Shown one piece after another: positions 6,761 through 28,353 of a DNA stretch of 46,872 nt. Below the pieces are notes generated by a model. The model was not told the origin of the DNA. It made no database searches and saw only the letters and a list, made by a program, of their open reading frames with translations. Both the position numbers and the translations under genes were made by a program. The DNA comes from Thermoplasmata archaeon (GTDB lineage Archaea > Thermoplasmatota > Thermoplasmata > Lutacidiplasmatales > UBA184), in NCBI GenBank assembly GCA_027315455.1, contig DAHUXZ010000008.1, forward strand, positions 21,143 through 68,014. Reading direction: 5' to 3'. The stretch's first letter is position 1; every line of letters begins with the position of its first letter.

Positions 6761-7044
6761 TCCTGGTGGGGTATCTGGCGATCGGCATCGCGGTGGTCGT
6801 CCTGGCGCTGGTCGTCGGGTTCTACGCGTGGACGTACCGCCGCAACCGCCAGCTCGGGAGTCCGGGCATCGTTTCGCGCTCGCGTCTCACCTGTCCGAAG
6901 TGCCACCAGGTCTTCGACTACGACTACATGCCGGGGGCGTCGTTCACCGCGCTGCGCCTGGGTCGCTCCCGGTACATGGCCTGCCCGCTCTGCCAGAAGT
7001 GGTCCACGTTCGACCTCAGCGAGGAGCGGCTCGCGAGGCCGTAG
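6757..7044 (+). CDS. Membrane-anchored zinc-ribbon protein
   Basis: 95 residues. One N-terminal transmembrane helix (about 3-26) is followed by a short basic segment (TYRRNRQLG) and a zinc ribbon with CPKC at about 48-51 and CPLC at about 80-83. The ribbon most likely faces the cytoplasm, because the residues after the helix are basic. Small proteins of this form are common in archaea, but no role is known to me. The start overlaps the stop of the upstream gene. The last 29 bases overlap, tail to tail, the 3' end of the recombinase gene on the other strand. Confidence 0.8.
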   Translation: MILVGYLAIGIAVVVLALVVGFYAWTYRRNRQLGSPGIVSRSRLTCPKCHQVFDYDYMPGASFTALRLGRSRYMACPLCQKWSTFDLSEERLARP

Positions 7045-8221
7045 GCTTTTGCGCGGCGCCGGACCCCGGCGGCCGCCTCCGCCTCCGGGCGCGCCGTCGC
7101 CCCGGCCCCCGGCCGCGGGGCGTCGGGAAGGGAGGCGGTCGGCGACCGTTCCCGGTCGCACGGCTCGCCGCGCGACGTCGTGCGCCACCCGTGTCCAGGA
7201 GATCGTCGAGGCGGCTCAGGCCGTCCCGCATCTCGTCCGCGTCGAGGCCGATGTAGTGCGCGGTCATGTCCACGGAGGCGTGCCCGAAGAGGTTCTTGAT
7301 CTGGACGAGGTCCATCCCCGCCCGCGCGGCCAGCCGCCCGAACGTCCGCCGCAGGTCGTGATGCGATACGCGGACGCCACGGCCCGTGAGCCCGGCGGCC
7401 CGGGCCGCGCCGGCAAGAAGGAGGTCGGCGCTGGAGCGCGACATCTCGAAAATGCGAGCCTCCGGCGCCTTCCCACGGACCCACCGCTCAAGGAGAGGGG
7501 CAACCCGCGGGTGGAGGGGGATACGTCGCCACTTCCCGCCGTTCCGTCCCTTGCCGAGCACTCGGAGGGTCGACTCCGGAAGGAAGACGTCCTTCACGCG
7601 CAGGCGGAGGACCTCGACGCGCCGAAGTCCGTTGAGCCCCTCGAGTGCGACCAGGATGCGGGCCCGCCCCGTCGCATGGGCGAGGAGCGCGAGGAGGTCC
7701 TCCCGGCTGAGCCAGCGTCGGTGGCTCGGCTCGCCGGACGGGAGGCGCCAGGCGCCGGCCTCCGCGGCGAGCGGATTCCCCGCCCAGCGCAGGAACTGCC
7801 GAAGCGCGGCGAAGTGGATCGCGAATGTAGGCTTCTCCCACCTCATGCGCTCCCGCAGCCCCTCGAGGTACGCGACCGGCAGGTCGCCCGGAACCGTCAG
7901 CGCAGTGTCGGGGGCGGCCACGGCCGACAGGCGGGGGACCCTGCCGAGCTCCCAGCTCATGCGCCGGAGCCATAGCTCGCCGACCGTCCTCGCGGCCCGC
8001 CGGGACTGAACGAACCGGCTGACCTCGTCGGTCCACTTTCGCCGTGCTAGGGCCACGGAGGCCTTCGGTCCGGCGGGTACCGGTCCGGACGTCGCGTACT
8101 CGTCCAGGGTACGGATCCCCTCCGGGCTCGGCGCGGACCGGCCTGACGGGCCGCCGCTCCGAGCCTTCCGGCCGCGCCGCGGGTCGCCACGTACCGTCGT
8201 CCCCGCGGGCGCCGGCGCCAC
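7016..8221 (-). CDS. Tyrosine recombinase / integrase family protein
   Basis: 401 residues. After a low-complexity basic N-terminus (about 1-50) come a SAM-like core-binding region (about 60-150) and the catalytic domain. All the usual catalytic residues are visible: Arg200 in GLRRVEVLRL, Lys224 in LGKGRNG, His288 and Arg291 in HHDLRRT, His314 in LFGHAS and Tyr323 in MTAHYIG. It should therefore be able to cut and join DNA through a 3'-phosphotyrosine. It could be an XerA-like chromosome resolvase or the integrase of an element. I see no tRNA or obvious attachment repeat beside it and no phage genes. A tail of about 75 basic, Pro-rich residues follows the tyrosine and overlaps the zinc-ribbon gene. 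The GTG at 8221 has only a weak box upstream, so the N-terminus is uncertain. Confidence 0.88.
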   Translation of the reverse strand: MAPAPAGTTVRGDPRRGRKARSGGPSGRSAPSPEGIRTLDEYATSGPVPAGPKASVALARRKWTDEVSRFVQSRRAARTVGELWLRRMSWELGRVPRLSAVAAPDTALTVPGDLPVAYLEGLRERMRWEKPTFAIHFAALRQFLRWAGNPLAAEAGAWRLPSGEPSHRRWLSREDLLALLAHATGRARILVALEGLNGLRRVEVLRLRVKDVFLPESTLRVLGKGRNGGKWRRIPLHPRVAPLLERWVRGKAPEARIFEMSRSSADLLLAGAARAAGLTGRGVRVSHHDLRRTFGRLAARAGMDLVQIKNLFGHASVDMTAHYIGLDADEMRDGLSRLDDLLDTGGARRRAASRATGNGRRPPPFPTPRGRGPGRRRARRRRRPPGSGAAQKPTASRAAPR

Positions 8222-11977: not shown

Positions 11978-12093
11978 GCTGCCCCGGGCCGCGAGCCGTG
12001 CGCGCACGGCCTGGCGGCCCCCGACGCGGAGGCACCCGCGGCCGGGGGAGACCCGGGAAGGGCCGTCGCGGTGGCCGTGGCATGGCCCACGGA

Positions 12094-12100
12094 CTTTAGG
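12094..12100 (+). promoter_or_regulatory. TATA-like box for the MBL-fold hydrolase gene
   Basis: CTTTAGG, centred about 25 nt before the GTG at 12122. It marks that GTG as a leaderless start and argues against the longer frame from 12071. Confidence 0.55.
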
Positions 12101-12121
12101 CGACGCGGTCGTGCCCTTCCA

Positions 12122-13324
12122 GTGAGCGACTCGCTCCCCCGTTCCGAGCACTACACCTTCGAAAGGATAGCCGAGGGAGTCACGTTCGGGCAGGCCCGGC
12201 GCGAGGGCACCGGCCTGTCGAACACCGCGCTCCTCGACCTCGGGAGCGTGACGCTCGTCTTCGACACCCGCCTCACCCTGCGCTCGGCGCGGGAGATCCG
12301 TCGGGTCGCCGTCGCCAGCCCCCCCCACGCCCCGGCGCTGTGCGTCAACAGCCACTGGCACCTTGACCACGTGGGGGGCAACCCGGAGTTCGCTCAGGGG
12401 CCGATCTACTCGACCGGCCGCACCCGCGCGATCCTCCTCGAGAAGCGGGCGGAGATCGAAGAGGAGCTCACGCCGGCCCGGCTCAACTCCGACATCCTTC
12501 AGCTCGAGGAGCAGGAACGGACCTCCCCGACCCCCGCCGCCCGCGCCGTCCCTGCGAGCGCCCTCGGCCTCAACCGTGCGCTGCTCGCGGAGGCTCGCGA
12601 GCGCCGGCTGACGCTGCCCACCCGTACCTTCGACGGATCGCTCGAGCTTCCCGGAGATCGGGACGCCCGCTTGGTGACCTTCGGAAGCGGCCACACCGAG
12701 AGCGACGCGATCCTCGTCCTCCCCCGCGAGCACATCGTGTTCGCGGGAGACCGGGTCGTGGCCGGGACGCATCCGAACCTAGCCTCGGGCGATCCCGAGC
12801 ACTGGATCGAAGTGCTGGACCGCATCTCCGCGCTCCGTCCGGAGCGGATCGTCACCGGTCACGGGCCTCTCGGAACGACCGAGACCCTCGCGACGATGCG
12901 CGAGTATCTTCTCACCGTGCTCGCGCTCGCGCGGGAACCGGGCACGCCGGCGATCCCCGACCGCTTCCGACCCTGGACCGAGCCGGACCAGTTCGCGGGG
13001 AACATCGCCCGCGCGCGGGAGCGCTACGCTGCCCGCGACGCCGGAGCGGCGCACGGCCCGACCTGTGGCGGACGGCCCCGCTCCCCTGCGCTCCCCCTCC
13101 CCCCTCCGCCCGGTGGCGTTAACTCTCGTGCCCGGCTCGCTCCGGCGTGGGCGGGGAACAGCCGTCGGGCCGGGACCGCCGCGCCGCGCCTCGACGCTGT
13201 CCGTGGGCGACGGAGGCGGACCCCGGCATGGAACGCTACCACGACCGTGAGTGGGGGGTGCCGACCCACGACGACCGGCGGCACTTCGAGTTCCTGCTTC
13301 TCGAAGGGGCGCAGGCCGGGCTGA
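12122..13324 (+). CDS. MBL-fold (metallo-beta-lactamase superfamily) hydrolase
   Basis: The open frame is 400 residues, but the recognisable domain ends near residue 310 (about 13060). The zinc-binding HxHxDH motif is present as SHWHLDH (His78, His80, Asp82, His83). Later ligands are in FGSGHTESDA, VFAGDRVV and VTGHGPLG. The family hydrolyses diverse esters, lactams or thioesters; the substrate is unknown. The last 90 residues are Pro/Arg-rich, unlike the domain, and overlap by 178 bases the glycosylase gene and its TATA box (13118-13123). One missing base in the C-runs at about 13085-13110 would bring the TAA at 13120-13122 into frame, so the tail may be an artefact. A frameshifted relative lies at 24353-25052. 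Confidence 0.8.
   Translation: MSDSLPRSEHYTFERIAEGVTFGQARREGTGLSNTALLDLGSVTLVFDTRLTLRSAREIRRVAVASPPHAPALCVNSHWHLDHVGGNPEFAQGPIYSTGRTRAILLEKRAEIEEELTPARLNSDILQLEEQERTSPTPAARAVPASALGLNRALLAEARERRLTLPTRTFDGSLELPGDRDARLVTFGSGHTESDAILVLPREHIVFAGDRVVAGTHPNLASGDPEHWIEVLDRISALRPERIVTGHGPLGTTETLATMREYLLTVLALAREPGTPAIPDRFRPWTEPDQFAGNIARARERYAARDAGAAHGPTCGGRPRSPALPLPPPPGGVNSRARLAPAWAGNSRRAGTAAPRLDAVRGRRRRTPAWNATTTVSGGCRPTTTGGTSSSCFSKGRRPG
13118..13123 (+). promoter_or_regulatory. TATA-like box for the tag gene
   Basis: GTTAAC in a GC-rich region, centred about 26-27 nt before the GTG at 13147. It supports that start, which is also the one needed to keep the zinc-binding cysteine. Confidence 0.55.
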
Positions 13325-13818
13325 GCTGGTCGACCGTGCTCCGCAAGCGGGAGGGATACGCCCGCGCGTTCGCCCGGTTCGACCCCGACAAGGTCGCCCG
13401 CTTCCCCTCCTCCCGCCTCTCGGCCCTTTGCCGTGACCCCGGGATCGTCCGCAACCGCGCGAAGATCGCGGCGGCAATCGCCAGTGCGCAGGCGTTCCGA
13501 TCGGTGCAGCGGGAGTTCGGGAGCTTCGATGCCTACGCCTGGTCGTTCATCGGTGGCGTCCCGCGGCAGAACCGCTGGAGGTCGGCGCGCGAGGTTCCCG
13601 GCACGACGCCCGAATCCGCCGCCTTCAGCGTCGATCTCCGTCGTCGGGGGTTCCGTTTCGTCGGGCCGACGATCGTCTACGCCTACATGCAGGCGACGGG
13701 GATGGTCAACGACCACCTCGTGGATTGCTTCCGTCACCGCGAGGTGGCGCACCGCGAGCCCCGCCGCGCGGCGCGCCCTCCGCTTAGACGCCCCACGACC
13801 CGTCGCCCCTCGGCGTGA
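13147..13818 (+). CDS. tag: DNA-3-methyladenine glycosylase I
   Basis: 223 residues. It removes 3-methyladenine from alkylated DNA as the first step of base excision repair. The zinc-binding set known from E. coli TAG is visible: Cys18 (RRCPW), His32 (RYHDREWGVP) and the later NDHLVDC (His and Cys three apart). The substrate pocket block LEGAQAGLSWSTVLRKRE matches the family very well, as do FDPDKVA, GIVRNRAKI, SFIGG and the RRGFRFVGPTIVYAYMQATG helix. Cys18 requires a start upstream of the ATG at 13228; the GTG at 13147 has a TATA box 26 nt before it, so I chose it. The C-terminal 25 residues are Arg/Pro-rich and probably not folded. Confidence 0.93.
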   Translation: MGGEQPSGRDRRAAPRRCPWATEADPGMERYHDREWGVPTHDDRRHFEFLLLEGAQAGLSWSTVLRKREGYARAFARFDPDKVARFPSSRLSALCRDPGIVRNRAKIAAAIASAQAFRSVQREFGSFDAYAWSFIGGVPRQNRWRSAREVPGTTPESAAFSVDLRRRGFRFVGPTIVYAYMQATGMVNDHLVDCFRHREVAHREPRRAARPPLRRPTTRRPSA

Positions 13819-13933
13819 GCTCCCGGTCCCCGCGCGGCGTTCCCGAACTGGTGCGACGCCGACCAGGGCCTCGCGCTCGCCATGACGCCCGCGCGTACCA
13901 CCGACGGGCCCCCGTGTGCCGGTCGGAGGCAGA

Positions 13934-13940
13934 GGTAAAG
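13934..13940 (+). promoter_or_regulatory. TATA-like box for the alpha-alpha-toroid gene
   Basis: GGTAAAG, centred about 26-27 nt before the GTG at 13964 but only 14 nt before the GTG at 13952. The spacing favours 13964 as a leaderless start. Confidence 0.5.
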
Positions 13941-13963
13941 CGCGAAGGTCGGTGGCGACGGCT

Positions 13964-14935
13964 GTGCCGAACGACCGGGTCCTCGACTGGCTCCTCGAAG
14001 GTGATCAGCCCTCGGTCCGCTACCTTGCGCTGACGCAGCTCCTGGGCCGCAAGCCCTCCGACCCCGAGGTCCGTGCGACGAAAGCGAAGATCCCGACGGC
14101 GGGATGGGCGGCCGAGATCCTCGCCCGGCGCGACCCGGGCGGCTGGTGGGGCCGCGACCGGCATCCGATGTGGCCGAAGTACACGGGCACCCACTGGAAC
14201 CTGCTCGCCCTCTCGGACCTCGGGGCGACACGCGCGATCCCCGCGGTCCGCCGGTCGGCGGAGTACTGGATGCGTAAGTCCCCCCTCGAGGGAGGGGGCG
14301 TCGGCGGGATGTCGGGAGTCCACGGACACCACTGCTACACCGGCAACATGCTCCGCGCGCTGATCCGGTTCGGGTACGGGGACGACCCCCGCGTGCGCAA
14401 GGGGCTCGACTGGCTCGTGCGGACCGCGCACCCGAAGGGAGGCTGGACGTGCTGGTCGTTCGGGTCGGGCCCGGCCCCGAGCCGGGCCCTGGGCGCGTGG
14501 GAGGGGCTGAGCGCGTTCGCGGCGTACCCCCGCGCCCGATGGACGGCGCGCATGAAGGGCTGCGTGGAGCGCGGGGCCGCGTTCTACCTCGAGCGCGAGC
14601 TCCACCGCCAGGGGTCGCGCTACGCGCCGTGGTACCGCTTCCACTGGCCGGTCCACTACTACTACGACCTGTTGGTGGGGCTCGACGTCCTGACCGCCCT
14701 CGGGTACGGCGACGACCCGAGGCTGGGGTTCGCCCTCGGCCTCGTGCGGAAGAAGCGGCGGTCCGACGGCCGTTGGAACCTGGACGCGAACCAGCCGGAC
14801 CTTGACGCCCGTGGGAAGCGGTACTATGCCGAACATCCCGCGTCGCGGCCGACGCCGCTCACGTTCGAGCGGGCGGGACGCCCCAGCAAGATGATCACGC
14901 TGCGGGCGCTCACGATCCTCTCCCGGGTGGGCTGA
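13964..14935 (+). CDS. Terpenoid cyclase/prenyltransferase-like alpha-alpha-toroid protein
   Basis: 323 residues from the GTG at 13964, chosen by its TATA box; GTGs at 13952 and 13916 are alternatives. The chain shows repeated paired helices with aromatic turn motifs: GGWWGRDRHP, THWNLLALSDLG, GHHCYTGNMLRALIRFGYG, KGGWTCWSFGSG, HWPVHYYYDLLVGLDVLTALGYG and DGRWNLD. This pattern is that of alpha-alpha toroids such as squalene cyclases and protein prenyltransferase beta subunits. No DxDD or QW-type cyclase motif is seen, and it is about half the size of a triterpene cyclase. The His, Cys and Tyr residues in the turns could line a pocket or bind metal (inference). No signal peptide is visible. 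The last 26 bases overlap an aldo/keto reductase remnant on the other strand. Confidence 0.7.
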   Translation: MPNDRVLDWLLEGDQPSVRYLALTQLLGRKPSDPEVRATKAKIPTAGWAAEILARRDPGGWWGRDRHPMWPKYTGTHWNLLALSDLGATRAIPAVRRSAEYWMRKSPLEGGGVGGMSGVHGHHCYTGNMLRALIRFGYGDDPRVRKGLDWLVRTAHPKGGWTCWSFGSGPAPSRALGAWEGLSAFAAYPRARWTARMKGCVERGAAFYLERELHRQGSRYAPWYRFHWPVHYYYDLLVGLDVLTALGYGDDPRLGFALGLVRKKRRSDGRWNLDANQPDLDARGKRYYAEHPASRPTPLTFERAGRPSKMITLRALTILSRVG

Positions 14936-15173
14936 GGGCGTCGGCCTTCCGGTCCCGGCGCCCCCACAGCAACCGGCCCACACGCTCCGCGTTGGGGTAC
15001 GGCGCGCACGCGTCCGCGCTGGCGAAGAAGTAAACGCCGATCGCGAACGCCCGCTCGTAGGTCGCCATCGACACGGCGGCGTGATGCACCCCCGAGGACG
15101 GGGACGCGCCCATGCACCCGAGCCCGATCGTTGCGACGCGCGGGCCGCTATGGCCGAGCGGACGCATCCGCAT
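14910..15173 (-). pseudogene. N-terminal remnant of an aldo/keto reductase
   Basis: An 87-codon minus-strand frame from the ATG at 15173. It begins MRMRPLGHSGPRVATIGLGC and continues to AERVGRLLWGRRD, which lines up with the first 75 or so residues of aldo/keto reductases (normally about 320). After GRRD the similarity stops and the frame ends at 14910. The catalytic Asp and Tyr of the family (in FDTAxxYG) appear as FASADACA, that is Asp to Ala and Tyr to Cys, so the site is lost. Truncation together with loss of both residues indicates a decayed gene. Confidence 0.7.
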
Positions 15174-15361
15174 TCGTTGACCTCCCGCCGGGCCCGGAAG
15201 AGAGCCCCGGTTCGCGCCGTCGGGATTAGCGCATAGTGACGGTCGGTCGGTGGCGGGGCGCGAGGTCGGCGACGGCCGTGCCGGGGTCTTCGTTGTCGAA
15301 CGGCCCCACCGGGACACCGGGCCGGACCGCCTCGACCCCGGGGCCGAGGAGCCCGGTATCC

Positions 15362-15713
15362 CTACCGGCGCGCGGCAGCCCTCCCCATCCGCAGTCCGTA
15401 GAGGCCGAGTCCGGTCCGGCCGAACGTCGGGGTCCGGCGGTCCCGGGCCCACCGGCGCTGCGCGTCGCAGCGACCGCCTCCGATCCCGTGGACCACGATC
15501 ACGACCCCGCGCTCCCGAACGAGGGGATCGAGCCGGGCGAACTCCGTGCGCGCGTCCCGGTCCTCGTGGGGAACGTCGTAGACGAACAGGTCGATGCGGG
15601 GAAGCTCCTTGGCGAGAAGGGGGAGCACCACCGCCTTGTCCCCGATGCGAAGGTCCCATCGGGCTCGGAGCCGGTCGGGGACCGCCCCGCCCGAGGTCCG
15701 TTCCGCGGGCAGG
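15362..15713 (-). pseudogene. C-terminal remnant of a class I methyltransferase
   Basis: A minus-strand frame running from just after a TAA (about 15714-15716) to a TAG at 15362. The readable part, RARWDLRIGDKAVVLPLL, then IDLFVYDVPHEDRDARTEF, RLDPLVRERGVVIVVHGIGG and the ending TGLGLYGLRMG, is the order of the last half of O-methyltransferase/Methyltransf_24-like proteins (iDlfihDxxH, then GGxxxxDD). The N-terminal SAM-binding glycine loop is absent and the frame has only an internal GTG (15631) to start from. It lies 188 bases from the reductase remnant. Confidence 0.55.
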
Positions 15714-15942
15714 CTTTAGGAGACGCGAGGCACGGGCGGGCCGGCTACGCTCCGCGGGCGCGCATCCGATGCTGCCCGGTCGGCCCTCGAAGGGATGGGT
15801 CAAGGTCTCCATGAGGTCGGTCGCCGACCCGACGGCCCTAAAGGAGTGGGTCCGGCGCTCGCGTGCGTTCACGGCGACCGTGCCCCCCAGGTGACCGGCC
15901 GGCCCGCCGGCTCGGCGGCGCTGCCCCGCCCGGCGCCTCCGG
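15714..15942. other. Non-coding or decayed stretch
   Basis: No convincing gene. A plus-strand frame ending at 15894 with a short protein-like stretch (SVADPTALKEWVRRSRAF) could be another remnant, but I cannot name a family. A TTTAGG at about 15714-15719 resembles the promoter boxes seen elsewhere, with no start at the usual spacing. Confidence 0.3.
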
Positions 15943-17307
15943 CTAGACGAAGGCCGCGAACTGCCCGGCGACGGCGCGGATCGCCCCCTCCCCCAGGTGG
16001 AGGAGGGTGGCCAGAGCACGGTAGAACTTCGCGAGGTTGCCGGGACGCTCCCGCTCGGCGAGCGCCGTGGTGAGGGCGCCGGCAGCGATCATCCTCGTGC
16101 TCGTCTTCCGGAAGGCGGGGTCGGCGCCCGCGCGTCGGGCCAGCGCGACCGCCCGCTCCTTCAGGCGGGGGAGCTCGCCGTCGGCGAGCTTCTCCTGGAG
16201 CAGCTCGCCGATCTCGTAGCCGTCGATCCACGACTGGATGAAGGTCCGCACGTCGACCAGGTTGATGCGCAGCTGGAGCGCGCGCTTGTAGAAGCGGTAG
16301 AGGCGGTAGCTCTCCCGCAACGAGCCGGGTTGCGGGCCCGCGGCGAGGATCTCTCTCAGGTCGCGGGGATACTCCTCGAGACGGCATGCGAGGTAGATCG
16401 TGGTCGGCACGAGCGACGAGTTGAGCCGGGGCGACAGCTGGACCCGGCGGCCGGGAGGGGCCTGGAGCCGAGCCCCGTGCAGGTCCACGATGCGGTTGTA
16501 GATCTCCAGAGCCCGGTTACGGACCCGGTCCGGAAGGCGGAGCAACCTCGACTGTTCGGCGATCCTCCGACGCGCCCACGCGTTGGTGCTCGGTTGCCGG
16601 GGACGGGGCGGTGGGGCCGCGGTGGGGGGGCGCGGGGAGGTCGACCGAAGCTCCCGCAGCCGTAGGATCTCCTCGGACGGAACCTCCGCGAGCGCGGTTC
16701 CAACGGGGGGGCCGGCGGCGATCGGGGGCGGCGGGCCGGCAACAGCGGGTGCCGGCGGGGGGGCGGGTCGTGGGGATGCGGCGGTCCGCACCCGGAAGTC
16801 CGGCGCCGGGGCCGGCAGGCCCCGGCCCGCGCTGGGTCGGGCCCGCGGGACAAGATCACGGGTCGCGCGCCGGACCGGGGCGAGCATCTTTGCGTAGGCA
16901 GCGTAGAGCCGATGGGCGGTATCGATCGTCTCCTTCGTCGGGGCGGCGCCGATCCGCAGCACCCGGTTGAGGTCAACGGGGTGGCCCTTGTACTCGCAGG
17001 CGAGCGCCAGCGAGATGGGCACCAGGTACCGGTTCGTGTTCGGGAGAAGGTTCCCCGCCACCGCTCGATAGGGGGTCAGGCGGACGACCGCCCGGTTGTA
17101 GTACCACAGTGCGACATTGCCCACCTGCCGGGCCGCCTCCGGGGGGAGACCCAGCGATGGGGCCCTCGCGAGGATCGCCCGTCTCGCCCAGGCGTTCGTC
17201 GCCGGGTCCGGGCGCGGGGCCCCGCGGGGCCGGGGGCTCAGGGCCGTCAACGGGGTCGCGGTTCCCGGCCGTGAGGGGGAACTGTCCGCTTCGCTCACCC
17301 GGACCAT
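15943..17307 (-). CDS. Divergent TFB (TFIIB)-like protein with duplicated cyclin-fold units and no zinc ribbon
   Basis: 454 residues. Two related units are visible. Unit 1 (about 37-145) begins TNAWARR, then LGLPPEAARQVGNVALWYYN, NRYLVPISLALACEYKGHP and TAHRLYAAYAKML. Unit 2 (about 241-347) begins with the same TNAWARR, then LRLPDRVRNRALEIYN, NSSLVPTTIYLACRLEEYP and SYRLYRFYKRAL. Each follows the cyclin-repeat pattern of TFIIB (LPxxVxxxAxxIY, then LACR, DLxEIL and YRxLYR). A Pro/Ala-rich linker of about 95 residues separates them, and a further helical region (350-454) follows. Genuine TFB has an N-terminal zinc ribbon and B-finger; there is no CxxC pair here, so recruitment of RNA polymerase would have to differ. 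It may bind DNA or TBP, or compete with TFB (inference). The ATG at 17307 has no clear TATA box nearby. Confidence 0.65.
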   Translation of the reverse strand: MVRVSEADSSPSRPGTATPLTALSPRPRGAPRPDPATNAWARRAILARAPSLGLPPEAARQVGNVALWYYNRAVVRLTPYRAVAGNLLPNTNRYLVPISLALACEYKGHPVDLNRVLRIGAAPTKETIDTAHRLYAAYAKMLAPVRRATRDLVPRARPSAGRGLPAPAPDFRVRTAASPRPAPPPAPAVAGPPPPIAAGPPVGTALAEVPSEEILRLRELRSTSPRPPTAAPPPRPRQPSTNAWARRRIAEQSRLLRLPDRVRNRALEIYNRIVDLHGARLQAPPGRRVQLSPRLNSSLVPTTIYLACRLEEYPRDLREILAAGPQPGSLRESYRLYRFYKRALQLRINLVDVRTFIQSWIDGYEIGELLQEKLADGELPRLKERAVALARRAGADPAFRKTSTRMIAAGALTTALAERERPGNLAKFYRALATLLHLGEGAIRAVAGQFAAFV

Positions 17308-17480
17308 CGTGAGGGCCTAGACCGCGCCGCGCGCCGTCGGCCGGCGGCAACCCCCCATGGACCATAGAGGCATCGACCGGTCTCGGAGGGACTCCTGCCA
17401 CGAGACCGACTTGGTGGGAGCCGTCCCCACCCCTCGCTTCCGGCGGCCGCGTGGGGACGAGCCGCGCCCCCCGGCCCTCG

Positions 17481-18683
17481 CTAACGCGGCGAGCCGAGGG
17501 AGAGGGCGGAGCGGTCGGCTCCGAGGAACCTCGCGAGGTCGTGGGCCTCGGCGGCCAAGTCCCTCCGCGCGCGCCGGACCGGCCCACCGAAGCCGGTCAC
17601 CGAGACGGCCAACCGCCCTCCCCGTCGGGCGTGCGCCCATACCCCCGCGACCTGCCCGTCGATGAGCACCACGGGGGAGACCCAGCCCTGCGGTCGGTAG
17701 ACCTTCCCGTAGTGCCGGGGCGGCACCAGCCGGCCGCGGTCGCCATGGCCCAGGAGGAAGGAATCAAAGTAGGGGAGTAGCCGCGCCGGGAAGACCGGCT
17801 CGTCCCGGTCCAGGAGGGCCGGTAGGTCCTTTACAAGGATCCCGGCGGTCCGGGACTCGAGGGAGACCGGGGCGATCTCGGACCCCAATCCGGCCCAGAG
17901 TCGCTCCGCCTCGGAGCGAAGCATCCCGGTCCACCACGCGAAGTCCGCGGGGGTCGCCGGGCCGAAGGCGGCCAGGTACCGGCGGAGGAGCTCGCGTTCG
18001 GCCGCCTCGCCGGGAAGGTCCTTCCACCCCGATACCCACGCCTCCGCCCGGACGAACGTGGGCTCGTTCCCCCGGGGCGGACCGTGACAGTACACCCCCC
18101 GGGAGGCCGCGAGGTGGAGGAGGTATCCGACGGGCAGGAGGAGCTTGCCGACCCGGAGCCACGCGGACCTCGCGTCGTTCCCCCACCCCCCGCCCCCGGG
18201 CTTTTCACGCACCGGGACCCCGAGCTCGCCCGCCACGGAGTCGGCGATCTCCCTCCGCGTCGCCGGCGCGTCGAGGGCCGCGAGGGTGGCCGTGAGCGCC
18301 CGTTCGAGCGCGGCGGCGGACACCCCTTTCCCCCGCGCCCAGCGGATCTCCCTCAGGACGCGGCGGGCCGTACCTCGGCCGTACATCGCCACGTCCGAGG
18401 CGGGGACGAGGTAGAGCGTCCGGCGCATGCACCACATCTTGACGAGGCTCCGCTGACGAAGCGCGTCCCGTACCTGGAACGGGCCGAGGCCAACGACCCG
18501 GGTCCACAGGGAGACCGCGGCCGCGGAAAGGAGCTGGGCTTGGGCACCGCCCATCGCCCCGGCCACGGCGACCAGCTCCCCCGAGGGCGCGCGAGCGTCC
18601 AGGCGGTGGCGGCGCAAACGGAACGCGGTCGCCTGCCGCCACGATATCGGGGTGGGAGCGGGGCCCTTCGCGCTGTGGACCAC
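17481..18683 (-). CDS. AlkZ/YcaQ-like winged-helix DNA glycosylase family protein (HTH_42)
   Basis: 400 residues. Family landmarks appear in order: ISWRQATAFRLRRHRL at the N-terminus, a helical region with AALSLWTRV-like pattern (AAVSLWTRVVGLG), the MRRTLYLVPASDVAMY segment that holds the catalytic region in AlkZ relatives, winged-helix repeats in the middle (LDAPATRREIADSVAG; FGPATPADFAWWTGM), and near the C-terminus RLLPYFDSFLLGHGDR and GWVSPVVLIDGQVAGVW. Members excise alkylated or crosslinked bases, and many are found with natural-product genes; the substrate here is unknown. The GTG at 18683 is the longest-frame start and has a weak A/T patch (ATCTAC) about 24 nt upstream. It is the second DNA glycosylase of the window. 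Confidence 0.82.
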   Translation of the reverse strand: MVHSAKGPAPTPISWRQATAFRLRRHRLDARAPSGELVAVAGAMGGAQAQLLSAAAVSLWTRVVGLGPFQVRDALRQRSLVKMWCMRRTLYLVPASDVAMYGRGTARRVLREIRWARGKGVSAAALERALTATLAALDAPATRREIADSVAGELGVPVREKPGGGGWGNDARSAWLRVGKLLLPVGYLLHLAASRGVYCHGPPRGNEPTFVRAEAWVSGWKDLPGEAAERELLRRYLAAFGPATPADFAWWTGMLRSEAERLWAGLGSEIAPVSLESRTAGILVKDLPALLDRDEPVFPARLLPYFDSFLLGHGDRGRLVPPRHYGKVYRPQGWVSPVVLIDGQVAGVWAHARRGGRLAVSVTGFGGPVRRARRDLAAEAHDLARFLGADRSALSLGSPR

Positions 18684-18869
18684 GACCGCCCCTACGCCGG
18701 TCCGTAGATGACGTTCCGGCCGTCGAACGCGGGTTCGCGAGCGCGCCCGCCGCCTTCCCCCCCCGGCAGGCCGCCGCCGTGGGCCCCCGGCCCCGGACCC
18801 ACTTCGGGTCGGGGTCCGATCGCGTCCGACCGCGCTGCCCGCCGGGGACGCTCGTTTCCGTTGCCGTCG

Positions 18870-20273
18870 TCAGGGCCGACGGCGATCGCGGGGCCGCGGG
18901 AGCGGGGGCGGCTCCTGCGCCGGCGCGGAGGGGGCGGGGCTCTCGTCCGGGGTCGACTCGCTCGACGGGGTCGGCGTGGGAGCCGTAAGCGGCTCCTCCG
19001 AGCTCAGGGCGATGATCTCGGGGGCGGCGGACGCCCAGACCCGGTCCACCTCGGGGGCGACGGCCCCCGGAATGGGAGGCTGGAGGAACAGCATCACGGT
19101 CATCGCGATGTTCGTCCCCACGATCACGAGGAGCGCCGGGAGGAACAGATTCGCGGCCGAGGGGATCTCTCCGAGGGAGATGATCAGGAGGACGGCGGAG
19201 GTGAGACCCCGTCCGTAGAGCGACGCCACCGGGCTCGCCCAGGCGCGCGGCACCGTCTTGGGGTTGCTGACCGCGGGGACGATGAGCCGGCGCATGCCGA
19301 GGAGGATCACCACGATCCCCACGATCACCACGCCCGTCTCGAGCCCGGGGCTCGACAGCGTCACGAGCATCCCGATGAGGAACAAAAAGAAGGTCCGCAG
19401 CAGGAAGGCGATCTCGACCTCCACGCGGCGGAGCTCCCGGGAGATGCGGAACGGGCGGACCCGGCGCAGGAGGCGGCGCACGATCGCCTCGTTGCCGAGG
19501 ATCATGCCGAAGACGATCGCCGCGAGGATCCCCGACCCGCCCAACGCCTCGGTGACGGCGTAGATCGCGAAGAGGAAGCCCAGGGTCGCGAGGGTCGCGA
19601 AGGGCCGGTCCTGCCAGCCGTAGAGGAACAAGAGCCACAGGAGGCCCGCCGCGATGCCGATGAGGATCCCCACCGGGAGGGGTAGGACGACGGAGACCGT
19701 GACGGTCAGGACAAGGTCCCCGCGCGACGGACCGATGAGGGAGAGGAGGGTGGTCACGGTCACTACGGCCAGCGCGTCCTCGATCGCCCCATCGAGGTGG
19801 AGCAGGCTGCGCAGTCCGGCCGGAAGCTGCAGCCGATTGGCGAGGGGGATGATCACCGCTCCCGAGACGCAACCCAACGAGGCGGCGAAGAGGAGGGCGC
19901 GCACCCAGTGGCCCGGGAAGAGGGCGAAGAGGCCGGCGGCGAACAGGACCGCGGTGCTCAGAAAGTAGCTCAGGACGGCGAAGAGGACGGCCGAGCCGGC
20001 GAGGGGGCGGAGGAGCGTGACCTTGAGGTCGATACCGGCGTCGAAGAGGATGAGGACGAGCGCCGCGGTCCCGAGGAGCGGCGCGATGGTCAGGAGCGAG
20101 GACGACGAAAGGAGCCCCAGGATCGGGCCGGCCAGGATCCCGAGGGCGATGAGCCAGAGGACATCGGGGATACGGAAGCGGGTCGCGAGCCAGTCGGCTC
20201 CGAAACCTACCAGAAGGGTCACGCCGAGCAGCGCCAGGACGAGGGTCGTCCCCGAGACGACGAGCAGCGTCAC
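18870..20273 (-). CDS. Cation:proton antiporter (NhaP/CPA1 type)
   Basis: 467 residues with about 12-13 membrane helices followed by a soluble C-terminal tail of about 75 residues, rich in Pro, Ser, Thr and Glu. The transport core is recognisable: LVLILFDAGIDLK at about 72-84, the unwound-helix region SGAVIIPLANRL at 137-148, and HLDGAIEDALAVV at about 159-171, where Glu165-Asp166 occupy the place of the conserved acidic pair. In relatives this protein exchanges Na+ or K+ for protons and helps pH homeostasis. The tail carries no TrkA domain. The GTG at 20273 has a weak box (CCGATACGG) about 30 nt upstream. Its neighbour downstream in coordinate is a P-type proton ATPase, so ion balance may be the shared theme. 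Confidence 0.88.
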   Translation of the reverse strand: MTLLVVSGTTLVLALLGVTLLVGFGADWLATRFRIPDVLWLIALGILAGPILGLLSSSSLLTIAPLLGTAALVLILFDAGIDLKVTLLRPLAGSAVLFAVLSYFLSTAVLFAAGLFALFPGHWVRALLFAASLGCVSGAVIIPLANRLQLPAGLRSLLHLDGAIEDALAVVTVTTLLSLIGPSRGDLVLTVTVSVVLPLPVGILIGIAAGLLWLLFLYGWQDRPFATLATLGFLFAIYAVTEALGGSGILAAIVFGMILGNEAIVRRLLRRVRPFRISRELRRVEVEIAFLLRTFFLFLIGMLVTLSSPGLETGVVIVGIVVILLGMRRLIVPAVSNPKTVPRAWASPVASLYGRGLTSAVLLIISLGEIPSAANLFLPALLVIVGTNIAMTVMLFLQPPIPGAVAPEVDRVWASAAPEIIALSSEEPLTAPTPTPSSESTPDESPAPSAPAQEPPPLPRPRDRRRP

Positions 20274-20757
20274 GGGGCCCCCCGGCCCCCCGGGCTCTTC
20301 CGTATCGGCCTACGTCCCGTCGGCCCCAGGTCGCTTCGATCGCGGCCCGGTCCGTTCGGGCCCCGCGGGCGCGCGCGGCTCCGCGCAGAGAACGGTCCCC
20401 TGCACGGGGCGCTCCCGCCGAACCTCGGCTGACCGACGGGGGGAGCGACCGACCGACGCACAGGTCCTCCCCCGAACGGAGGGTCCATCGATTAAGAACC
20501 CTCGCCACGAGCCCCGGGCGATCGCCATGGAGCAGTGCCACCGCGGGAACGCGCCAGCGGGGCGACCCCCGACCGCCTCGGGGGCGGTTCCGGGTCCCGC
20601 GGTGGAGGACGCCGCCTCCTCCAGAGCGACGGGAAGGAGGCTACCGAGGCTACCCTGCCCGGGGGTCGGGTGGGTGCCGGAAGCCCGGTCGGTGGAGGGG
20701 GGCGACGGGGGTGTGCCACCCCGGCCCCCTCCCCGGGCCGCTGGGCGGGCGGAACGG
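20274..20757. other. 484-base gap with an unassigned promoter-like element
   Basis: No convincing coding region. The only clear A/T island is GATTAAGA at 20490-20497 (readable on the minus strand as TCTTAATC). It could drive the antiporter with a leader of about 190 nt, or a short plus-strand transcript beginning near 20520. The frame from the ATG at 20527 runs antisense through the ATPase gene and has a shadow-like composition. Confidence 0.4.
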
Positions 20758-23202
20758 TCAGGGCGGAGTTCCGGCTGCGCCCGCGGACCCGGCCGCGGTC
20801 GCCGCGACCTCCGTGAGCACGGACTCGCCGGTCTTCTGGAACACCCAGAGCTTGAGGCGGTCCAGCCCGAGGGCCGTCCCGGCGACGGCCGCGAGGAGCG
20901 CCACGACCCACGTCAGAGGGATCGGCGTCATGAGCAGTCCGAAGACCGCCATCAGGCTGAGCACGGTGATGTCGACGCTGGACGCGAGGAGAAGGTACCG
21001 GCTCGGCCGGGAGCTCCAGAACGGGCCGCGCTCGCGCAGGAGGTAGGTCGTCGCCTGCCCCGAGAACAGGAGGTAGAGGAAGACGACGGTCTGGAGAGTG
21101 GCGACGCTCCAGTGGAAGGCGGCAAGGCCGAGGGTGACGAGCGAGAACGACAGGATGAGCCACCCGGCCGCCATCGCGGCGCCGAGCAGAAGGAGGCGGC
21201 GGACGTTCCATCGGTCGGGCTCGCGCGAGATCCGGGCCCGGTCGGTGCCCACCGAGATCGTCACGAAGTCCCCCGCGAAGATCATCACGAGGACGAGGAG
21301 CGGGGTCGTGACGAAGGCGTGGTAGACGAGGAACCCGACCCCGAGCAGGACCACGAGCTCGAGGTTCTTCGAGATCTTGGTGAGCATCCAGGTGAGCATC
21401 CGGCGGTAGACGCGGCGACCCCCCTCGACCGCGCTGACGATGTCACCGAGGCCGGGTCGGGTGAGCACGACCTTCGACGCCGCCTTGGCGACATCGGTCG
21501 CGTTCGATACGGCGATGCCAACCTCCGCCTGCTTGAGGGCGGGCGCATCGTTGACGCCGTCTCCCGTCATGCCGACGACGACCCCCGTCGCCTGGAGCGA
21601 CCGGACGAGGGCGAGCTTGTCCTCGGGGTAGACCCCCGCGAACCCCCCGAAGCCGCGGGCGGCCGTACCGAGGTCCGTCCGCCCGCCGATGGGCCCCACG
21701 ATCCCGAGCGTCCGCGCGACGGCCTCCGCCGTCGGGCGCGTGTCGCCCGTGACCATCACGACGCGGACGCCCATCTCGTGAAGGCGCGCGATCAACGCGG
21801 GGGCGTCCTCCCGGACCGGATCCTCGAGCGAAAGGAGACCGACGACGTCGAGCCGTCCCTCCGGTCCGGCCGCGACGGCGAGCACCCGGCTGCCGTGCCC
21901 GGCGAGCGCGTCGACCCGGTTGGCCAGGTCCTCCGGGGCGCGGGCGAGCTGCGCGATGATCGCCGGCTGCCCGAGGAGGACGCGGAGTCGCTGGCCGCCC
22001 TCACGGACGACCGCCTCGCTCCGCTTGGTCGCCGGGTCGAACGGCACGACCGACTCCCTCGGCAGCCGGGCCGATCCGGCGGCGGCGCGGAGGATCGCGA
22101 GGTCGATCGGGTCCTGCGTCGCCTCGTCGCACGCGGCCGCGGCGAGGGCAAGGACCTCCTCCCGGGACCTCGGCCCCAGCGAGCCCGCCCGCTCCACCGC
22201 GAGACGGTTCTGGGTGAGCGTCCCGGTCTTGTCGGTGCAGAGTACCTCCATCCCCGCGGCCTCCTCGATCGCCGAGAGCCCGGTGACGAGGACGCCGGAA
22301 TCGGCGAGATGTCGCGACTCGAGCGCGTTCGCGACGGTGAACGTCGCGGGGAGCGCCGCCGGCACGGACGAGATGAGCAGGATGAGGATGAACGGGACGA
22401 TCTCCACGAAGCTCGAGGCGCCGAGGAGGGTGTCGACGACGATCAGGACCGCGAAGACGGCATCGGCGACCGCGAGGTAGCGGACGACGGTGAACATGAG
22501 GTCCTGGAGGTGGCCGCGTCCCCGGGCCGAGCGGACGAGCTCCGTCGTGCGCCCGAAGTAGCTCCGGGCCCCCGTGGCGGTGACCAGGGCCGTCGCCTCG
22601 CCGCGTCGAAGGATCGAGCCGGAGTAGAGGGTCTCGGCGGGGCCCCGGTCGACCGACGCCGACTCGCCCGTGAGCGCGGACTGGTCGACCTCGACGTGAC
22701 CGTCGAGCACCCGGCAGTCCGCCGGCACGATGTCGCCCATCCGCACATGGACGGCGTCGTCAGGGACGAGCTCGCGCGCCGGCAGCAGCTGCCACTGGCC
22801 GTCGCGCCGGACTCGGGCCGTGACCCGCAGGCGACCGCGCAGCAGCTCGACCGCGAGCCGCGCCCGCTGCTCCTGGCTCACGGACAGCGCCGCGTTGAAC
22901 ATGAGCAGGCCAACGAGGATCAGCGCTTCCGGGAGGTGACCGAGCACGAGCTCGATCGCGAATGCCGCCTCGAGCATCCATGGGATCGGGCCCCACAGCT
23001 CGCCCAGCAGGAGGCGGGCGGGATGGGTCCGCTCCTCCGGGACCTCGTTGAACCCTGCCTGGGGGCGGCGCTCGGCGACCTGCGCCGTCGTGAGGCCGGC
23101 CTCCGTCGCCAAGGGTAGACGAGGTCCCGACCCCGGTGCCGTGCTCAGCAGACCTTCCCTCCCCTCCGGCGAAGGCCGACCCGGTTCCCCGTCGACCCGC
23201 AC
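20758..23202 (-). CDS. P-type proton-efflux ATPase (type IIIA)
   Basis: 814 residues. The actuator motif TGES is at 178-181, the PAALP membrane motif at 281-285, the phosphorylation site CTDKTGTLT with Asp324, MVTGDTRPTAEAV in the 483-495 region, and GDGVNDAPAL at 547-556. About ten membrane helices are arranged 2+2+6. The N-terminal LTTAQVAERRPQAGFNEVPE block is typical of plasma-membrane H+-ATPases, also known from Thermoplasma-like archaea. It would pump protons out using ATP. In the nucleotide domain the usual KGAP motif reads LGQP, so the ATP-contacting Lys is missing. The GTG at 23202 gives the longest frame, but no TATA box was found at a fitting distance, so the first 25 residues are uncertain. 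Confidence 0.93.
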   Translation of the reverse strand: MRVDGEPGRPSPEGREGLLSTAPGSGPRLPLATEAGLTTAQVAERRPQAGFNEVPEERTHPARLLLGELWGPIPWMLEAAFAIELVLGHLPEALILVGLLMFNAALSVSQEQRARLAVELLRGRLRVTARVRRDGQWQLLPARELVPDDAVHVRMGDIVPADCRVLDGHVEVDQSALTGESASVDRGPAETLYSGSILRRGEATALVTATGARSYFGRTTELVRSARGRGHLQDLMFTVVRYLAVADAVFAVLIVVDTLLGASSFVEIVPFILILLISSVPAALPATFTVANALESRHLADSGVLVTGLSAIEEAAGMEVLCTDKTGTLTQNRLAVERAGSLGPRSREEVLALAAAACDEATQDPIDLAILRAAAGSARLPRESVVPFDPATKRSEAVVREGGQRLRVLLGQPAIIAQLARAPEDLANRVDALAGHGSRVLAVAAGPEGRLDVVGLLSLEDPVREDAPALIARLHEMGVRVVMVTGDTRPTAEAVARTLGIVGPIGGRTDLGTAARGFGGFAGVYPEDKLALVRSLQATGVVVGMTGDGVNDAPALKQAEVGIAVSNATDVAKAASKVVLTRPGLGDIVSAVEGGRRVYRRMLTWMLTKISKNLELVVLLGVGFLVYHAFVTTPLLVLVMIFAGDFVTISVGTDRARISREPDRWNVRRLLLLGAAMAAGWLILSFSLVTLGLAAFHWSVATLQTVVFLYLLFSGQATTYLLRERGPFWSSRPSRYLLLASSVDITVLSLMAVFGLLMTPIPLTWVVALLAAVAGTALGLDRLKLWVFQKTGESVLTEVAATAAGSAGAAGTPP

Positions 23203-23379
23203 CGGCGAGGCGCTGCGCTACATCTCGGCATCGCCCTCGGACCGGCCCGGGGAACCCGTGGCCCCGCCCGCCAGGTGCCCACTCGGCCACCGTCGCGTCC
23301 CGGCGGCGGCCCGGGGCGGTCTCGGCCGGTCCGCGGGCGTTCGCGGACCGGCCCCCCGGGGGTCGTGGCGGCCGCCGTC

Positions 23380-23610
23380 CTATTCCTTCTTTTCCTCGCC
23401 CTCGCCCTTGAACCCCTTCTTCGTGGAGGAGCCGACGGCCTTCGCCCCGCCCCACAGCCCCTTGCCGATCTTCCCGGCGACGTTCCCGGCCCCCTTGGCC
23501 ACGTGGAGGGTCTCTCCGGCCGCGTGCTGGCCCATGCCGACGGCGCGCCCGCACGCCGGGCAGGCCTTCACCGTCTCCGCCATCTCCGCACCGCATCCTT
23601 CGCACTTCAC
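23380..23610 (-). CDS. Small zinc-ribbon protein
   Basis: 76 residues. A zinc ribbon at the N-terminus has CEGC at residues 3-6 and CPAC at about 17-20. A Gly/Ala-rich middle (GAGNVAGKIGKGLWGGAKAVG) and a Lys/Glu-rich end follow. The GTG start at 23610 has a good ribosome site (GGGAGG, about 9 bases upstream), in contrast to the leaderless genes nearby. The function is unknown; such proteins may act as adaptors. It is divergent from the next gene, another zinc-ribbon protein. Confidence 0.75.
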   Translation of the reverse strand: MKCEGCGAEMAETVKACPACGRAVGMGQHAAGETLHVAKGAGNVAGKIGKGLWGGAKAVGSSTKKGFKGEGEEKKE

Positions 23611-23814
23611 GTTCCGTTCCTCCCTTCTCGGTTCCCCGGGGGCGATGCCCCCGGGAAGACCGAGTACCCGGAGTACCGAGGTCTCTCTTGTTGGTGTCGA
23701 TGGTGCCGGCCGCCCCGCGGGTCCCCGGCCGGCCGGTTCCGGTCGAGGTGCGCCCCCTCTGCGTCAATCCGGCTCAACGGAAGCGACACAACCCGTCGGG
23801 GGGCTGCTGGGAGC

Positions 23815-24363
23815 ATGTCCGTGAGCTATCCGGCGCCGGGCGTCTCCCTTCGGATCGCGCGCGTCCCCTCCCCGTCCGCGTCGAGCGCCCAGACCCTGAT
23901 CCTCGTCGCGTGGATCCTCCAGGCGATCGCCGTCGCCATCTTTCTCGGCGGGATCGGGTTCCTCGTCGTGTACTCGGCGCTTTACCCGTATCCGTACGCC
24001 GCCCTCGCCGTAGCCGGAGGGATCGGCCTGGGGATTCTTCTTGGCGCGTTCCTCTACCTGGCCTACACGCTCTCCTACGAGCGCGTCCGGGCCGGCCAGC
24101 TGGCCGAGGCCCAGACCCCGACCCTCGTCATCGGGATCCTTTCCCTCTTCGCGGGGGTGCTGCCGGGGATCTTCTACATCCTCGGCTACGTCAAGATCGG
24201 AGACGCGATCCACGAAGAGGGCCCGGGGTTCGCGGGTAGCCCCGCGACCTATGGTCCCGCGTTCCCCCCGCCCCCTGCCGCGACCTGCGCGGGGTGCGGC
24301 CGCGCCTACGCCGTCGGGTCGGTGGCGTACTGCCCCGCCTGCGGGCGCAAGCTCACCGCGTGA
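23815..24363 (+). CDS. Membrane protein with C-terminal zinc ribbon
   Basis: 182 residues from the ATG at 23815; the longer frame from 23275 is a shadow of the opposite strand. Three to four helices are visible (about 25-50, 58-82 and 100-125), followed by a Pro-rich linker and a zinc ribbon with CAGC and CPAC near the C-terminus (CAGCGRAYAVG; YCPACGRKL). This is a common archaeal layout with unknown role. The end overlaps an MBL-fold pseudogene on the other strand by 11 bases. The start region has a weak A/T patch only. Confidence 0.8.
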   Translation: MSVSYPAPGVSLRIARVPSPSASSAQTLILVAWILQAIAVAIFLGGIGFLVVYSALYPYPYAALAVAGGIGLGILLGAFLYLAYTLSYERVRAGQLAEAQTPTLVIGILSLFAGVLPGIFYILGYVKIGDAIHEEGPGFAGSPATYGPAFPPPPAATCAGCGRAYAVGSVAYCPACGRKLTA

Positions 24364-25052
24364 CGGAGGAACCCTTTCCGCCGGGGGAGGCTTCGGGAGA
24401 ACCGTCCGTCGTCCAGGGATGGAACCCGTGGGAGACCAGGTCTCCGGCCGCGAGGACCCGATCGTCCCTCAGCCAGAGAAACGCATCGCTCGGGGTATGC
24501 CCCCCGCCGTAGCTCAGGATCTGGGCGGTCCGACGCCGGCCAGACAGCCGCAACTCCGTGGCGAACGTCAGGGACGGAGGAACGATGCGGACTCGCCCTC
24601 GTGCCGCGAGGATCCCGCCCCACCATCCCTCGTAGAGGGCCCGATCGACCCCGGGGATCGGCTCGCGCCCGGACCGCGGCCCCTCGAGGAGGGCGGGCAC
24701 TGTCGGCGGTCCTCGGGGAGCTCCTCACCCGCGCGTCGCGCGACCAGCGACCGGGTCCCCTCCGTCCCGATCAGCCGTGCGGCCGAGAGCGCCGGGTTCC
24801 CTCGGATGTGGTCCCCGTGCCAGCGGCTGTTCACGAGGAACGACGCCCGCCGCCCGGTCAGCGACCGGGCCAGGCGGCTCAGCTCGGCCCCCCCACGGGG
24901 GTGAGACCGGCGTCGAAGACGAGCGCGTCGTCGCCGAGGTCGACGATCAGCGAGTTGCCGAGGGCCGCACGGCCGTCTCGTACGATCGCCGCCGTACTAC
25001 CATCGCCCAAGGCCCGCGCCACGAAGTGCGGGCCGCGGACACGGGCCGCCAC
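24353..25052 (-). pseudogene. MBL-fold hydrolase interrupted by two frameshifts
   Basis: Three overlapping minus-strand pieces together give one MBL-fold protein. Piece 1 (from GTG 25052) carries AALGNSLIVDLGDDALVFDA and reaches a TGA just after a run of seven G (plus 24888-24894). Piece 2, in the next frame, gives FLVNSRWHGDHIRGNPAL. Piece 3, after a second shift near 24715-24735, gives PSLTFATELRL, SYGGGHTPSDAFLWL and VLAAGDLVSHGFHPW. The order matches the intact MBL gene at 12122. The zinc motif reads SRWHGDH, so the first His is also lost. One extra G in the run would restore the first junction, so sequencing error is possible there, but two shifts plus a lost ligand favour decay. Confidence 0.65.
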
Positions 25053-25166
25053 GGCGGTCGAGGCCCGTGCTCGGCCTCAAGCCACCCACCTCCCCCACGT
25101 TTCCGGCGGGCTCGCCATCGGCTCCCCGCGCGAGCCGAACGACGGCCCATGGAACGACCAGAAGGG

Positions 25167-25174
25167 TCTATACC
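25167..25174 (+). promoter_or_regulatory. TATA box for the BNR/PEGA surface protein gene
   Basis: TCTATACC, centred about 36 nt before the ATG at 25207. The leader would be about 10 nt, with a short GGAG just upstream. Confidence 0.55.
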
Positions 25175-25206
25175 CCCGGGACCGGTCCGAACCCGGAGCG
25201 GACCTG

Positions 25207-28200: not shown

Positions 28201-28353
28201 GGGTTGGGGATCGTGGCGGTCGGCGCGGTCGCCGTCGCGGTAGGCGTACTTCTCCTCCGGGCCCGTCGGGGCCGTCGGGCCTCCCCGGCCTCCCGGCCCC
28301 CGTCGCGCCCGCCTCCGAGGAGCCCCCGGCCGCCCGGCCCGAGCGGCCGCTAG
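25207..28353 (+). CDS. Cell-surface protein with BNR (Asp-box) repeats and PEGA-like domains
   Basis: 1048 residues. An N-terminal basic region and hydrophobic segment (about 18-42) form a signal peptide. Residues 100-560 look like a sialidase-type beta-propeller with six Asp-box turns: SSDGGHSW (156-163), SDNGGYTW (217-224), STDNGSTW (270-277), STDHGAKF (321-328), STDNGTHW (393-400) and SHNGGATF (448-455). From about 640 to 985 there are about five PEGA-like repeats (for example GSVLPAASGLEVDGVPV; GQVSPAGATVRVGDSL). A transmembrane helix near 1000-1020 and a basic, Pro-rich tail follow. Many N-x-S/T sequons suggest glycosylation. The sialidase RIP/Arg catalytic set is not evident, so it is probably a binding or structural protein. 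Its stop shares CTAG with the convergent gene. Confidence 0.85.
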   Translation: MHRPHHASCRRRRPKIGIGRVVALGALLAVSLLVDPVGGVRAAPLSGIAGASAAPVTATTPAGPDGGSLPCVLAACPVPSPTGAGPSPALRLRPLPSLLGNTPTNWLVANWSGEGMIAENPSNPASFVAGSLYQEPGSLNNSTIYNAQGVSGAYASSDGGHSWFVQPLPACEFHIADSALAFGPGGHVVYIDMGWGTSAAGCPWSGVSGYGVFATTSDNGGYTWGTPVSLRGNGSFSLDKPWVTVDPVSGEYYAAYTDDGASSQIYLQNSTDNGSTWSTPIRLSTTLADSMRGVELSVDATGAVDAVWVDQSTATVEFTRSTDHGAKFSTPVALGTAATAYSSPSPDGFRAYLLPALAVDRSPTSADEGRIYAAWQNGTGGSAGSPFISEVYSTDNGTHWTAPKKVNSDTLYEDFQPSIAVDPNGTVFIDWYAESATSGHYRLQASESHNGGATFDPEVNVSDTDSYPYYTGLGNAWWIGDYTDIVADAQGAHPLWTDARGTQEWSCTNCLWGYDYNISMYTAEIVNFSVTANVPVNLTLGGSVPGAGTWPVGPGGAYGDWLVGQNYTLTAPAVTTVNGTNAYFTTWYGAASSSSTSLTGSVTGDAALHACYTFRANDVCRAPGAPGFLEISGAPAGAAVRVNGQPAALFAGAANLTERPGPYWVNASAPGFHSRDTEVNVTTANVSRVNATLTPYPGWIAGSVLPAASGLEVDGVPVVVAANGTFNVSVLPGTHTISAFYPLYANFTDPALNVVTNVTTPLLIDLAANAGVVHGSVFPPDAAVTVNGQAVPTPGGIFDIVLPIGTYWFNATAASYLPGSSGPVVVLGLSNTSVDLTLLLAAGTLAGTVAPASATLRVDGTVVPLSGDAYNVTLSPGPHDANVSAPGYAPEGFVATVSPEATTWLNFSLSAVPGWIVGQVSPAGATVRVGDSLVSLAANGAFNVSLMAGTYRLSAGATGYAPVYRNVTVAAGVAVETNLTLSPLPAVTASGLTTTDLAGLGIVAVGAVAVAVGVLLLRARRGRRASPASRPPSRPPPRSPRPPGPSGR
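28350..28353. other. Convergent stop codons sharing CTAG
   Basis: The plus gene ends TAG at 28351-28353 and the minus gene ends TAG at 28352-28350. The two genes therefore have no intergenic space and overlap by two to three bases. Confidence 0.85.

Follow-up and report, generated by a model that had tools for sequence, protein, structure and literature searches.

The window analysed here, a stretch of 46,872 nucleotides from a Thermoplasmata archaeon, encodes a real and rare TFB derivative, specific to its lineage and unusual in its layout: the zinc ribbon is missing, and two tandem, mutually homologous units stand in front of a third predicted helical region. The protein is very basic (454 amino acids, pI 11.3), and its frame, at the coordinates given by an earlier reading of the letters alone (hereafter, the sequence-only reading), is open on the minus strand. 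The plus frame over the same positions contains internal stops, and the GC content of the three codon positions (0.73, 0.58 and 0.89) is as expected for a gene in a GC-rich genome. The start ATG at 17307 is conserved in the ortholog of a sister genome and follows an in-frame stop just 5' of it in the window. The features of the ORF are as follows:

15943..17307, minus strand: whole ORF (P0001), ribbon-less TFB-like protein of 454 aa; open frame, ortholog 74% identical, overall dN/dS 0.24
16858..17205, minus strand: unit A, residues 35-150, duplicate of cyclin repeat 1 from its hhalign match to unit B, with predicted helices; dN/dS 0.18
17179..17199, minus strand: first TNAWARR motif, residues 37-43, from the sequence
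16594..16857, minus strand: Pro-rich linker, residues 151-238, from composition (25 Pro in 88 residues); predicted disordered except for a helix at 212-222
16642..16686, minus strand: EVPSEEILRLRELRS, residues 208-222, possible remnant of the TFB stretch before cyclin 1, within the hhalign match to whole TFBs; labelled the B-linker in this analysis
16270..16593, minus strand: unit B, residues 239-346, TFB cyclin repeat 1 (PF00382; repeat 1 E 2.6e-8); dN/dS 0.10
16567..16587, minus strand: second TNAWARR motif, residues 241-247, from the sequence
15946..16269, minus strand: region C, residues 347-454, five predicted helices in the repeat-2 position, strongly diverged, from the structural model and a weak repeat-2 signal

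Both TNAWARR motifs lie at the residues that the sequence-only reading had given, and the Pro-rich linker that it had described does separate the two units. The further motif pattern that it had the units share holds in part: YRLY..Y is present in unit B and becomes HRLY..Y in unit A, and the Tyr after LAC is differently spaced in the two. The helical region at 347-454 was absent from its two-unit layout and appears in the AlphaFold2 model.

Two homologous units and a missing zinc ribbon

The relationship between the two tandem units, also part of the original claim, is far above chance. Local alignment of the two halves of the protein (BLOSUM62) scored 176, while none of 1000 shuffles exceeded 72; with everything through TNAWARR removed, the halves scored 101, compared to at most 62 for 1000 shuffles. 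Units A and B share 43 identical residues out of 102 aligned in the window protein and 43 out of 101 in the ortholog, and comparison of their profiles (hhalign) gave an E-value of 2.3e-13. In the AlphaFold2 model, with residues matched via the sequence alignment, their main helices pair one to one, unit A having an extra short helix at 81-84.

The zinc ribbon is missing, in agreement with the sequence-only reading: the sole cysteines of the protein are C104 and C308, and no match to PF08271 was found at the locus. A frameshifted or overlooked ribbon 5' of the start, which that reading had named as evidence against itself, was not found: the interval separating the start from the upstream gene is free of CxxC in all three frames, both in the window and in the sister genome. 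Normal TFB genes, for which a check had been proposed, are present elsewhere in the same genome, which carries three ribbon-bearing TFBs (C24, C15 and C6) together with one TBP ORF.

Kinship to the cyclin repeats of TFB

A TFB reference set was drawn from the ORFs of loci L001-L056 that match the protein's two-row profile at E <= 0.01; after leaving out orthologs, adding two TFBs of the window's own genome and removing duplicates, 29 ORFs were obtained, every one of which (29/29) contains CxxC-x(10-20)-CxxC, in L021 at an odd position. Unit B matched Pfam PF00382 with 24.5 bits, above the cut-off of 23.6, and, when compared to the 29 TFBs using hhalign, matched repeat 1 with E 2.6e-8 and repeat 2 with E 4.4e-4. 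The corresponding E-values for unit A were 0.012 and 0.052, and region C matched repeat 2 with E 0.03 and repeat 1 with E 0.095. Profile comparisons were also made in global and local mode, with 100 column shuffles each. In global mode, unit B scored 45.3 with repeat 1 (shuffle maximum 11.0) and 16.9 with repeat 2 (9.8), unit A scored 15.5 with repeat 1 (shuffle maximum 11.0) and 3.3 with repeat 2 (32/100 shuffles as high), and region C scored 10.2 with repeat 2 (shuffle maximum 10.0) and 3.6 with repeat 1 (47/100 as high). In local mode, the score of unit A was reached by 1/100 shuffles for repeat 1 and 3/100 for repeat 2, and that of region C by 3/100 for repeat 2 and 17/100 for repeat 1. 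Plain pairwise scores of A and C with the genome's three TFBs were not above those of shuffles. Given these profile and pairwise scores, the link of unit A to TFB runs via unit B, and that of region C is weak.

When the whole protein was compared to whole TFBs (hhalign), the match extended over residues 208-373 (E 3.3e-8) and included the surroundings of unit B: EEILRLREL before it faces AQLYRLRKW of TFB, and NLVDVRTFIQSW after it faces the TFB inter-repeat link and the start of repeat 2. Starting a little ahead of repeat 1, the 29 TFBs have 65 columns with conservation of 90% or more; the window protein keeps 28 of these, which by our own count comprise 3/5 before repeat 1, 20/32 in repeat 1 and 5/28 in repeat 2, the repeat-2 part of this alignment being insecure. 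The full-length NCBIfam TFB model NF001658 scored 32.3 bits, far from its cut-off of 384. When scores of unit B were summed over both orthologs, the best TFB of its own genome reached 150; TFBs from other families within the order or class reached 178.

On the basis of these sequence comparisons, both units resemble TFB cyclin repeat 1, unit B corresponding to repeat 1 with its flanks and unit A to a copy of B. The TFIIB/TFB kinship suggested for the pair is thus upheld for unit B and reaches unit A via B, A by itself being weakly TFB-like. The proposal that the units follow the TFIIB cyclin-fold order did not hold: they are two copies of repeat 1, and the place of repeat 2 is taken by the third predicted helical region. 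A weak PF00382 match elsewhere (G019:C135) was rejected as a TFB; by our reading, this ORF encodes a cation-efflux protein.

The AlphaFold2 model, built from two sequences, is of low confidence (mean pLDDT 59.5, pTM 0.32) and contains helix groups at 35-150, 241-343 and 353-453. Foldseek searches with the whole model returned the Pyrococcus TFB core first (1ais_B, E 6.7e-5 over 209 columns; 1d3u_B, E 3.8e-4), these being the only matches at E <= 0.001, followed by eukaryotic TFIIB and cyclins. As TM-scores by target are low (0.40 for 1ais_B and 0.38 for 1d3u_B) and the rmsd is high, the model supports the fold class and not the arrangement. A structure unlike cyclins, another outcome named in advance as contrary, was not seen. 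When modelled alone (pLDDT 56.9), region C found no Foldseek match at E <= 0.001 (best E 0.65), while some cyclins, mixed with unrelated folds, came up at E-values of 0.76 and higher, all non-significant. Its profile had a best E-value of 1.4, to an unrelated protein, among solved chains, and matched 6 of 400 genomes in a sample of the class, namely the two orthologs and four weak partial matches (E 0.004-0.007). Region C occupies the repeat-2 place, and a repeat-2 origin is weakly visible in its sequence.

Distribution, selection and gene neighbourhood

A search of public genome contigs found one relative, a full-length ortholog 74% identical to the window protein, in a genome of the same genus (JAKAOB010000020.1, Thermoplasmata archaeon isolate YF1.bin107; G007, the sister genome). 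Judged by the exchanger gene nearby, this genome is the closest relative (83% identity, compared to 65% for the next genome), and nine predicted ORFs of the window, from 12071 to 30842, have counterparts in the same order in the 20 kb of the sister genome that were compared. Nei-Gojobori dN/dS between the orthologs was 0.38 for the N-terminus, 0.18 for A, 0.42 for the linker, 0.10 for B and 0.22 for C. Judged by these ratios, the protein is real and under selection, which is purifying on A, B and C (0.10-0.22), with the Pro-rich linker freer to change (0.42).

The profile search for homologues of the TNAWARR-pair protein, suggested by the sequence-only reading, yielded full-length proteins in 2/78 genomes of the genus and otherwise weak partial matches. 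At E <= 0.1, matches were present in 62/78 of these genomes, the remaining 60 being weak and partial (best E 0.002-0.04); because many genomes of the genus are incomplete (25/78 reach 90% completeness with contamination of 5% or less), part of the absences may reflect missing sequence. In the class sample, at least 11/400 genomes were matched, comprising the 2 full-length proteins and 9 weak partial ones (E 2e-4 to 8e-4), with up to 4 candidates per genome scored, so that weak relatives may be missed. A profile of the A/B unit matched 6/389 genomes in a phylum sample, with a whole-unit match in the window's own genome only and partial matches in the other five (E 1.4e-5 to 9.8e-4; frames of 316-335 aa). 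A mobile or viral origin was rejected, with no relative in three pattern-seeded viral-contig scans or in tblastn of phage records; PADLOC and PHROGs also returned nothing.

A gene for an AlkZ-like DNA glycosylase (17481-18683, minus strand; PF06224, 218 bits) precedes the TFB-like gene by 173 bases on the same strand and adjoins it in both genomes that have the latter. AlkZ relatives occur in 10/78 genomes of the genus; no window-type copy of the TFB-like protein was seen in the 5-10 kb around AlkZ in five of the other eight, nor did a profile scan find the protein in the shorter AlkZ loci of all eight. As for promoter boxes, no 8-base stretch with at least six A/T occurs in the 180 bases that precede the TFB-like gene or in the 195 bases that precede AlkZ.

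Just downstream lies a fragment (14952-15173, minus strand) that we take to be aldo/keto-reductase-like, the family name being our own reading; it is 61% identical over 74 aa to an ORF of the sister genome, which has a long open frame at this place. A 339-aa protein (13916-14935, plus strand) matches a squalene-hopene cyclase C-terminal domain below threshold (25.4 bits, cut-off 26.1) and has relatives near AlkZ in the sister genome and also in a further genome (G253). Two long predicted ORFs, 24601-28353 (plus strand, 1250 aa) and 28350-30842 (minus strand, 830 aa), have sister-genome matches at 70% and 66%, and a phage-integrase-family recombinase (7016-8221, minus strand; PF00589, 60 bits) lies about 8 kb from the TFB-like gene.

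Possible modes of action and known systems

Our best explanation, which we put forward tentatively, is that this lineage-specific TFB derivative occupies TBP-promoter complexes without recruiting polymerase, as a natural equivalent of the isolated TFB cyclin folds known as TFBc. We hold more loosely the fuller version, in which a TFB of natural origin, devoid of the ribbon and with its TBP/DNA-gripping cyclin unit present twice, would serve as a promoter-occupying repressor or a two-site clamp. The derivative differs from an ordinary TFB by the absence of the N-terminal zinc ribbon and B-reader and by a duplicate of repeat 1 (unit A) placed in front and held on a flexible Pro-rich tether; it retains unit B as repeat 1, together with the stretch preceding it and the connection to the strongly diverged repeat-2 region C. 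Unit B, aided by basic unit A, would bind TBP-promoter DNA. According to PMC7289017, the TFB ribbon docks on RNAP and the second cyclin fold contacts the BRE; a cyclin 1 protein without the ribbon should therefore occupy TBP-DNA with no start of transcription, and the promoter would be held against ordinary TFB. TFBc is described as forming TBP-DNA complexes, failing to recruit RNAP and blocking initiation (PMC8448881). Since few conserved repeat-2 residues are found in region C, normal BRE reading is unlikely; any promoter choice would rest on something else, and unit A may make up affinity. Counted against this explanation are the 5/28 repeat-2 residues, the low confidence of the model, the NF001658 score far below cut-off and the restriction to two genomes, as well as a unit A that alone is not clearly TFB-like and a repeat-2 signal in C barely above shuffles, and that in global mode alone.

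An alternative that we consider unlikely makes the protein a positive or gene-specific regulator, with unit A as a new docking module that replaces the ribbon and works with ordinary TFB or an activator, or with the two cyclin-1 units bridging two TBP-DNA sites. It is raised because Sulfolobus has a partial TFB, TFB3, that acts beside ordinary TFB to stimulate transcription (PMC7289017, PMC5817253), and the conservation and strongly basic character of unit A (dN/dS 0.18; pI 10.9) would suit such a role. However, TFB3 has the RNAP-contacting part that the window protein lacks, and the latter has no known partner. Less probable still is that the protein binds DNA or has an architectural role, having ceased to work with TBP or the initiation machinery: the conserved repeat-1 columns kept by unit B, the most constrained region, argue against it, whereas the pI of the whole protein, the eroded repeat-2 residues and the DNA glycosylase neighbour are consistent with it. 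That a functionless TFB copy is decaying here is very improbable, as both orthologs are full-length open frames with constrained domains, even though the protein is rare in the genus and long diverged and the adjacent reductase gene is a fragment. Least credible is the layout of the sequence-only reading, with A and B as TFB repeats 1 and 2 separated by the linker, which accommodates two homologous cyclin-like units and no ribbon but conflicts with the far better fit of B to repeat 1, the global-mode fit of A to repeat 1 and not repeat 2, and flanks of B that are those of repeat 1.

A conserved natural TFB of this kind, with no ribbon and the first cyclin unit duplicated, would suggest that the promoter-gripping half of the basal factor can be turned into regulators in archaea, and the window offers a defined protein for testing competition for TBP-promoter complexes as a form of regulation, with a reach limited for now to two sister genomes. 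Among titles and abstract openings of the open-licence literature, no description was recognised of an archaeal TFB that lacks the ribbon and has repeat 1 in tandem, which is weak evidence of absence.

The protein resembles the core of archaeal TFB and eukaryotic TFIIB (PF00382; 1ais, 1d3u) in having unit B as repeat 1 with its flanks, followed by a helical region in the repeat-2 place. It differs from them in lacking the zinc ribbon and B-reader, in carrying an extra repeat 1 in front and in a repeat-2 region diverged beyond secure recognition. Plant AtBRF5 is likewise TFIIB-like without the N-terminal zinc domain, but has a linker and one cyclin fold, with no tandem copy described in the excerpted text (PMC7865254).

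Further comparisons are provided by two archaeal partial TFBs, the engineered TFBc and the natural TFB3. TFBc (PMC8448881) shares the ribbon-less cyclin part, and a hold on TBP-DNA without RNAP would be expected by analogy; TFBc, however, was made in the laboratory by truncation and has both repeats in normal form, whereas the window protein is natural, with repeat 1 doubled and repeat 2 eroded. Sulfolobus TFB3 (PMC5817253, PMC7289017) is, like the window protein, a partial TFB paralogue found beside ordinary TFBs. According to the same excerpts, TFB3 keeps the RNAP-contacting side, interacting with RNAP without a DNA-binding domain; the window protein, which has the DNA-side cyclin and no ribbon, is no TFB3 but its mirror image.
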